Below are positions 12,899 to 14,477 of a stretch of 53,071 nt of DNA, piece after piece; the first letter of the stretch is position 1; the number at the start of each line of letters is the position of its first letter. The position numbers and the translations under genes were made by a program. The notes below the pieces were generated by a model. That model was not told the DNA's origin, did not search any database, and saw nothing but the letters and a program-made list of their open reading frames with translations. Source of the DNA: Patescibacteria group bacterium (GTDB lineage: Bacteria > Patescibacteriota > Minisyncoccia > UBA6257 > Colwellbacteraceae); the NCBI GenBank assembly GCA_023380305.1, contig JAMCQZ010000008.1:69588-122658 (forward strand), written 5' to 3'.

Positions 12899-12967
12899 GG
12901 TGGATATTAACCTTCATATCCGATGGTGTCGTGACTTGAGGCTCCACGACCAAAACCTTGTATCTTG

Positions 12968-14477
12968 TAATTTAATTGATTCACGCACAGCTTCCGCTAC
13001 ACGTGCCTTGTTACGACTTAGCCCATGTCACCGAATTCGAACTTATTCCACCGAAGTGAAACTTCATTCGCCCCCGGCTCCCCTGGCTTGACGGGCAGTG
13101 AGTACAAGACTCGAGAACGTATTCACCGCAGTATAGCTGACCTGCGATTACTAGCGATTCCGGCTTCATGAGGGCGAGTTGCAGCCCTCAATCTGAACTG
13201 AGATTAATTTTAAGGATTAGCTCCGCCTTACGGCTTGGCAACCCGTTGTATTAACCATTGTATTATGAGTGTGGCCCAGGGCATCAGAGGGCCATGCGGA
13301 TTTGACGTCGTCCCCACCTTCCTCCTTGAAAAACAAGGCAGTTTCGCGTGACACATATAACACGCAATAGGGGTTGCGCTCGTTACCCAACTTAATGGAA
13401 CATCTCACGACACGAGCTGACGACAACCATGCAGCACCTGTGCTTGCGGTCCTTGAGAGAATTTCCGCATTTCTGCAGACTTTCCGCAAACATTTCAAGC
13501 CCTGGTAAGGTTCTTCGTTTACTATCGAATTAAACCTCATAATCCACCGCTTGTGCGAGTCTCCGTCTATTCCTTTGAGTTTTAGCCTTGCGGCCGTACT
13601 TCCCAGGCGGTCTACTTAACGCGTTGGCTACGCCACTCCGAGGGTCGATACTCGAAACAGCTAGTAGACATAGTTTAGGGCGTGGACTACAAGGGTATCT
13701 AATCCTTTTTGCTCCCCACGCTTTCGTGTTTCAGGGTCAGGAATGCGCCAGTTTGCTGCCTTCGCCTTTGGTGTTCCACATGATATCAACGGATGTCACC
13801 CCTACACCATGTGTTCCGCAAACCTCTCGCATCCTCTAGTTTCGCCGTATCCCCCGCACTTCCGCCGTTGAGCGGCGGTCTTTAACAGGAGACGCACAAA
13901 ACCCCCTACACACCCTTTACGCCCAATAAATCCGGATAACGCTTGAAGCCTACGTATTACCGCGGCTGCTGGCACGTAGTTTGCAGCTTCTTATTCCTAC
14001 GGTACCGTCATTGTATTCTTCCCGTAGAAAAGCAGTTTACAATCCGAGGACCTTCTTCCTGCACGCGGCGTCGCTCCATCAGGCTTTCGCCCATTGTGGA
14101 ATATTCTCGACTGCTGCCACCCGTAGGTGTACGAACCGTGTCTCAGTTTCGTCGTTGGGGGTCAGCCTCTCAGCTCCCCTACCGGTCATCGCCTTGGTAG
14201 GCCGTTACCCTACCAACTAGCTGATCGGACCTAGGCCGATTTCGAAGTGGCTTGCGCCTTTACCCTTGCGGGACCATTGGGGATTACCTAACCTTTCGGC
14301 TAGCTATACCCATCTTCGATGTACGTACCAAGGTGTTACTAACTCGTTCGCCGCTATCTCTTTTTATCCGTTCATTTGATGTAATCTCACGTCCTTCAAA
14401 AAAGAAATCGCTCGACTTGCATGCCTTATCCACGCCGCCAGCGTTCATCCTGAGCTAGGATCAAACTCTCATTAAAG
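12968..14477 (-). rRNA. 16S ribosomal RNA (stand-alone; 3' tail lacks canonical anti-SD)
   Basis: Reverse complement contains AGAGTTTGATCCTAGCTCAG, GTGCCAGCAGCCGCGGTAATAC, AAGTCGTAACAAGG and a well-paired helix 45. Confidence 0.97.

Follow-up and report, generated by a model that had tools for sequence, protein, structure and literature searches.

Loss of the anti-Shine-Dalgarno sequence from the 16S rRNA of a Parcubacterium and its order, with sequence signatures of leaderless initiation

Introduction

Most bacteria locate their gene starts by means of the anti-Shine-Dalgarno (anti-SD) sequence, a stretch of the 16S rRNA, and the question arises how translation is initiated in an organism whose 16S rRNA ends without one. 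This question is raised by a stretch of 53,071 nucleotides (the whole of which is hereafter called the window), for which an initial annotation had described a 16S rRNA gene with an intact helix 45 followed by a tail devoid of an anti-SD. The window is part of the draft genome G000 (544 kb, 97% complete, 11 contigs), which belongs to a Parcubacterium of the Colwellbacteria family (Patescibacteria), probably within the class Paceibacteria; a second genome of the same genus is referred to as G001.

Results and Discussion

The 3' end of the 16S rRNA

The following features define the 16S rRNA gene and its end:

14476-12969, minus strand: complete 16S rRNA gene (Rfam RF00177, 1415.9 bits, model positions 1-1533)
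13005-12982, minus strand: helix 45, CACGUGUAGC-GGAA-GCUGUGCGUG, with a GGAA tetraloop (read from the sequence)
12981-12967, minus strand: 16S 3' tail AAUCAAUUAAAUUAC, without an anti-SD (read from the sequence; identical in G001)

Helix 45 is paired at 10/10 positions, three of which are G-U, and is followed by AAUCAAUUAAAUUACAAGAUACAAGG, such that GAAUCAAUUAAAUUAC occupies the place of the usual bacterial GGAUCACCUCCUUA and CCUCC is absent. The mature 3' end is predicted to lie near AAUUAAAUUA. The stretch from helix 45 up to the 16S processing stalk (12899-12874) is free of CCUCC, so that the motif cannot be concealed by a shifted 3' end or by an insertion ahead of the tail; the nearest similar string is CCUC, which lies within a trailer hairpin, in its variable loop. 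A further 16S copy carrying CCUCC, which the initial annotation had named as a finding that could overturn its reading, does not exist in G000, as the RF00177 matches across the whole genome reveal one 16S gene only. With this single copy and the tail of G001, the 16S 3' tail of this bacterium is established as lacking an anti-SD, just as had been described from the sequence.

Distribution of the tail among relatives

Comparison with the 16S ends of close relatives, which had been proposed along with the original description, demonstrates that the tail of the window is common to them. Of 25 complete tails retrieved for the order, none contains CCUCC and 16 carry AAUUA at its position. A readable helix-45 anchor is present in 160 of the 244 genomes of the order, and CCUCC was detected in a single one of these 160 (G559). 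The loss of the anti-SD hence spans the whole order among genomes with a readable 16S end. With regard to the exception, the helix 45 of the CCUCC-bearing copy (L235; G559:C18:13194-13239) differs from that of the order and matches that of G242, a member of another family of the same class, and a native-type helix 45 is present in G559 as well, on a different contig, so that the CCUCC copy is probably a stray or contaminating contig. In one other genome of the order, two copies of the helix-45 anchor are found 69 bp apart (G676:C5:1388-1482), which points either to an artefact of the assembly or to a tandemly duplicated 16S 3' end.

One could argue that the missing anti-SD is itself an artefact, caused by an assembly error, a wrongly placed 3' end, an intron that precedes the true tail or a second 16S copy missing from the assembly, given that G000 is a draft in 11 contigs and that patescibacterial 16S genes frequently contain introns and have incompletely annotated 3' ends (PMC12641178). 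However, the independently obtained genome G001 has an identical tail, which rules out an assembly error, no credible CCUCC occurs in the 160 anchor-bearing genomes of the order, the trailer is free of CCUCC up to the processing stalk, and SD motifs occur at chance level throughout the genome (see below), which an artefact in the 16S gene would not produce. A second copy, a misassembly, an intron and a mis-set end were consequently rejected, and we regard an artefact of any of these kinds as scarcely conceivable.

Elsewhere in the class, an intact CCUCC is retained by 47 of 188 genomes sampled, and in the phylum by 166 of 287. The tails of the class among the matches listed, which are redundant and cover part of the genomes, so that the intermediates are examples rather than a census, comprise intact CACCUCC, the intermediates CAUCUCC, UUCUCC and UAUCUCU, and full losses. 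Even within one family (f176), an intact member, members with UUCUCC and one member that has lost the sequence stand side by side among the matches listed. Since intact, intermediate and lost tails are found next to each other, the decay of the anti-SD within the class looks repeated and stepwise.

SD motif use

Gene starts were assigned with a simple ORF-based procedure. In G000, GGAG, GAGG or AGGA precede 36 of 463 starts compared to 33-34 in shuffled sequences, and for the 308 starts that are conserved in both G000 and G001, SD tetramers were counted 23 times with 20.8 expected and 27 times with 22.0 expected. The same code recovered SD motifs in an E. coli control (14/36 vs 5.4) and in G065, a member of the phylum that carries CCUCC (31 vs 16.6). 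SD motifs are thus at chance level genome-wide, and the frequency check that had been proposed for the entire genome did not uncover any enrichment. The initial statement that there is essentially no SD in the window holds in this statistical sense, but not as an absolute one, as 4 of 44 starts in the window are preceded by GGAG, GAGG or AGGA and about ten strong SDs exist elsewhere in the genome. Together, the shared tail, the single 16S copy and the lack of SD enrichment support the SD-independent initiation that had been suggested.

The roughly ten genes of G000 with strong SDs (such as AAAGGAGGUGA) are a curious group. Canonical motifs of the AAAGGAGGTGA type were located on contig C8 (positions 38476, 54500, 57923, 148517, 180116 and 8686) and in the region C11:15028-17081, which contains three near-identical tandem copies. 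Those on C8 have no homologue in G001, and among genes with GGAGG-type motifs 7/16 lack a G001 homologue, compared to 116/463 of all genes. A Pfam scan of the strong-SD genes returned Thy1, polysaccharide deacetylase and a weak DUF6982 match, and no Pfam domain in five of the eight genes scanned. To judge from this pattern, these genes may be recent arrivals from SD-using hosts.

Other members of the class indicate in which order the two components could have been lost. SDs are enriched in G374, in which the anti-SD is intact (15 vs 6.0), and are at chance in G414, which has CAUCUCC. In G432, CCUCC is intact and SD tetramers are nevertheless at chance, with the leaderless signature described below being present, which suggests, from these three genomes, that SD disuse preceded the loss of the anti-SD.

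Complementarity of the new tail to mRNAs

If the old anti-SD is gone, the conserved A/U-rich tail (CAAUUAAA) could represent a new one that pairs with a new type of SD upstream of the starts. The tail motif is common to many families of the order, and AATTAA, ATTAAA and TTAAA are indeed enriched just upstream of starts; these k-mers are, however, accounted for by the A/U richness of the region and by the -10 box described below. Moreover, the mean duplex energy of the tail with positions -20 to -2 is -1.52 compared to -1.46 in shuffled upstream regions, and 54 of 60 permuted tails bind the upstream regions equally well or better. The new tail hence has no complementarity to the mRNA upstream regions beyond chance. 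An alternative anti-SD of the 'SD-abundant without CCUCC' kind (category iii) was rejected on the basis of these duplex energies, and we consider a replacement by the new tail to be highly improbable.

Gene starts without SDs

Upstream of the starts of G000, a TATAAT-like box is found at a fixed distance. With at least five of six matches and its first base between -17 and -11, it occurs in 56 of 237 genes at the head of a transcription unit (leading genes), whereas dinucleotide-shuffled sequences give 19.2 +/- 4.1. The first base peaks at -14 and -12, with background being reached by -11/-10, and alignment on the box shows that it is preceded by TGn and, at 17 nt upstream, by a TTG-like -35 peak. 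Among 308 conserved starts, 75 in G000 and 68 in G001 carry the box, and 52 pairs do so in both members compared to 16.6 if independent, an expectation that ignores the likeness by descent of orthologous upstream regions. In G001 alone, with uncurated starts and mononucleotide shuffles as reference, the signal amounts to z = 1.2, whereas it is clear on conserved starts. In addition, 58 of 64 box-bearing genes start with ATG, compared to 293 of 399 others, an excess that initiation at a 5'-terminal AUG would favour.

The sigma70 -10 hexamer spans positions -12 to -7 from the transcription start. As such, transcription of box-bearing genes is expected to start on the start codon or no more than a few bases away from it, as is predicted for two genes of the window:

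20449-21459, minus strand: predicted leaderless gene, TGcTATAAT with the first T 12 nt before the ATG (upstream sequence ttctgctataattaagccATG)
22709-23194, minus strand: gene with a predicted very short leader, TATAAT with the first T 16 nt before the ATG

TA-like signals (TANNNT/TATAAT) about 12 bp before the start have been described as the mark of leaderless genes (PMC3160421), and the placement of the box suggests that the same applies here, with transcription starting, and ribosomes initiating, at a 5'-terminal AUG. Yet a clear box covers only about a quarter of the leading genes (~16% after subtraction of background), so that most genes need another route. Leaderless initiation would hence be one major route without being proven dominant, and it may not lead in terms of protein output.

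Two further properties of the starts bear on these other genes. The A+T content upstream of starts is 65% in a genome of 50% GC, and RNA folding is weakest at the starts (-3.6 kcal/mol for a 40-nt window vs -6.2 to -6.6 kcal/mol elsewhere). Besides this, an overlap of 1 or 4 nt was counted for 29 of 298 same-strand neighbours and a distance of 0 to 5 nt for a further 54, and translational coupling can therefore serve genes within operons.

It is also imaginable that leaders do exist, that they are A/U-rich, unstructured and recognised by S1 as in Bacteroidota, and that the -10 box is a mere by-product of short intergenic regions. The A+T-rich, weakly folded starts and an S1 protein with several S1 domains in G000 would fit such a scenario. 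The box is, however, sharply placed, is accompanied by TGn and a -35-like TTG, exceeds dinucleotide shuffles and is associated with ATG starts, and the S1 route and the leaderless route may coexist. As a replacement for leaderless initiation, recognition of leaders by S1 therefore seems unlikely to us.

Initiation and 16S maturation proteins

E. coli Era binds a 16S segment that includes the anti-SD. No Era homologue above the cut-off was found in 21 genomes of the order, in which only weak hits to the GTPase domain occurred, and one constraint fewer would consequently act on this sequence. Homologues of KsgA, IF3, YchF, YbeY, RNase III and S1 were found in G000, and RbfA was not detected there by phmmer. 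These results are in line with a report that era is mostly lacking in Paceibacteria and that YchF, a promoter of leaderless translation, is broadly kept in the CPR (PMC12641178). Two of the relevant frames are located in the window, the second one having similarly weak matches in most relatives:

207-608, minus strand (G000:C8:69794-70195): homologue of YbeY, the 16S 3'-end endoribonuclease of E. coli (phmmer with E. coli YbeY, E 5.9e-12)
1146-1247, minus strand: divergent bS21-like frame in an open frame of 72 aa (PF01165, E 7.5e-4, 18.9 bits, below the curated cut-off of 27)

Proposed explanation

From our point of view, the findings are likely to be explained by a loss of the anti-SD across the order with helix 45 and the remainder of the 3' domain being kept, such that SD pairing is not used and starts are chosen in other ways, including leaderless mRNA. 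SD use would have withered first, and the anti-SD, no longer under selection, would then have decayed, repeatedly within the class; this order of events is our inference. In roughly a fifth of the leading genes, the -10 box would be positioned so near to the AUG that transcripts begin at or close to it and the AUG is recognised at the 5' end. Other starts would be recognised as A/U-rich, weakly folded RNA with S1 as a likely helper, and many genes within operons would be reached by a start that abuts or overlaps the preceding gene. As intact, intermediate and lost states occur in one class, SD disuse, the absence of Era and the decay of the anti-SD can be placed on a tree. For ribosome biology, these bacteria offer natural 30S subunits that work without an SD helix. 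On the practical side, gene finders that reward SDs will misplace starts in these genomes, in which the -10 box should take the place of the SD as a guide.

Relation to known systems

The novelty, which had been called uncertain, is limited, since the loss of the anti-SD is a published phenomenon, including in neighbouring Parcubacteria. PMC10783764 reports it for Wolfebacteria, Campbellbacteria, Absconditabacteria and Peregrinibacteria, and the cases described there resemble the present one in that helix 45 is intact, CCUCC is missing, SD motifs are rare and the tail is common to relatives. Whereas single genomes of Wolfebacteria and Campbellbacteria are treated there, the loss is followed here through 160 genomes of one order, and the intact and intermediate tails in the remainder of the class as well as the leaderless signature, of which we noticed no mention there for these groups, are added. 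Wolfebacteria genomes carry the tail motif of the window, too.

A wider survey lists 128 taxa convincingly without the consensus anti-SD, extending the 15 of Lim et al. 2012 (PMC6107228). The absence of CCUCCU was likewise set by helix 45 in those taxa and no variant SD matched the variant tail; the taxa are, however, mainly Bacteroidetes, Mycoplasma and Carsonella, and Parcubacteria are not named in the main text. The present case is a member of this known class of anti-SD loss with scarce SDs and no CCUCC, as judged by helix 45, the single 16S copy together with the relatives, and SD motifs at chance.

In Actinobacteria and Deinococcus-Thermus, the anti-SD is kept and SDs are used for the other genes, whereas the anti-SD is gone here. 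TA-led leaderless genes account for above 20% of genes in these two groups (PMC3160421), and the position of the -10 box, about 12 bp ahead of the start codon, and the share of genes bearing it are similar in the Parcubacterium. Flavobacterium-type ribosomes, in which bS21 is reported to cover the anti-SD (as mentioned in PMC10783764), share SD-independent initiation, A-rich starts and a bS21-like frame with it, but as CCUCC is not retained here, there is no anti-SD to cover.

As far as our literature search shows, the extension of the loss through the order, the leaderless signature of these bacteria and the trailer hairpin are new; the search was limited, and that it yielded no paper linking leaderless initiation with Parcubacteria is not proof of absence elsewhere. 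With these data, the loss of the anti-SD, known from scattered species, extends across an entire order rich in species.

The 16S trailer

Outside the mature sequence, the 16S transcript contains a hairpin and the two strands of a processing stalk:

12928-12950, minus strand: trailer hairpin GUCGUG-GAGCCUCAAGU-CACGAC, conserved and covarying
12874-12899, minus strand: 3' strand of the pre-16S processing stalk, CGGGACAACUAAAAAAGUUUUUUACU, predicted to form a duplex with the leader strand
14569-14598, minus strand: 5' strand of the stalk, AGUAAAAGAUUUUUUUAGUUGUCCCAAAUC (predicted duplex; an RNase III homologue is encoded in the genome)

Several families of the order share the hairpin, the consensus of which is GRUCGWG-GAGCnnnAAGU-CWCGAY and which lies about 30 to 170 nt downstream of helix 45. 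In 20 sequences, 120/120 cells are paired and three of six pairs have changed on both sides, a covariation score that was reached by none of 500 shuffles. The hairpin matches no Rfam family, only one copy, beside the 16S gene, was found in G000, and it may aid 16S 3' maturation. One could go further and speculate that the whole order has dismantled SD recognition (SDs first and the anti-SD later, together with the absence of Era), that it translates largely leaderless mRNAs and that the new tail CAAUUAAA and the trailer hairpin are kept as another way of 16S 3' maturation; as a whole, we hold this extended scenario to be possible, although rather less probable than its negation.

The stalk has the usual pre-16S form, with the trailer GGGACAACUAAAAA predicted to pair with the leader UUUUUAGUUGUCCC. 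Its predicted energy is -79.6 compared to -57.7 +/- 4.4 kcal/mol in shuffles, and strands like UAGUUGUCCC / GGGACAACUA are present in most relatives. The gene that comes after the 16S is response-regulator-like and starts at 12777, and the only 23S motif detected lies on a different contig (G000 C10, near 25614). With a stalk of its own around the 16S and the 23S motif located elsewhere, the 16S and 23S genes appear to be unlinked.
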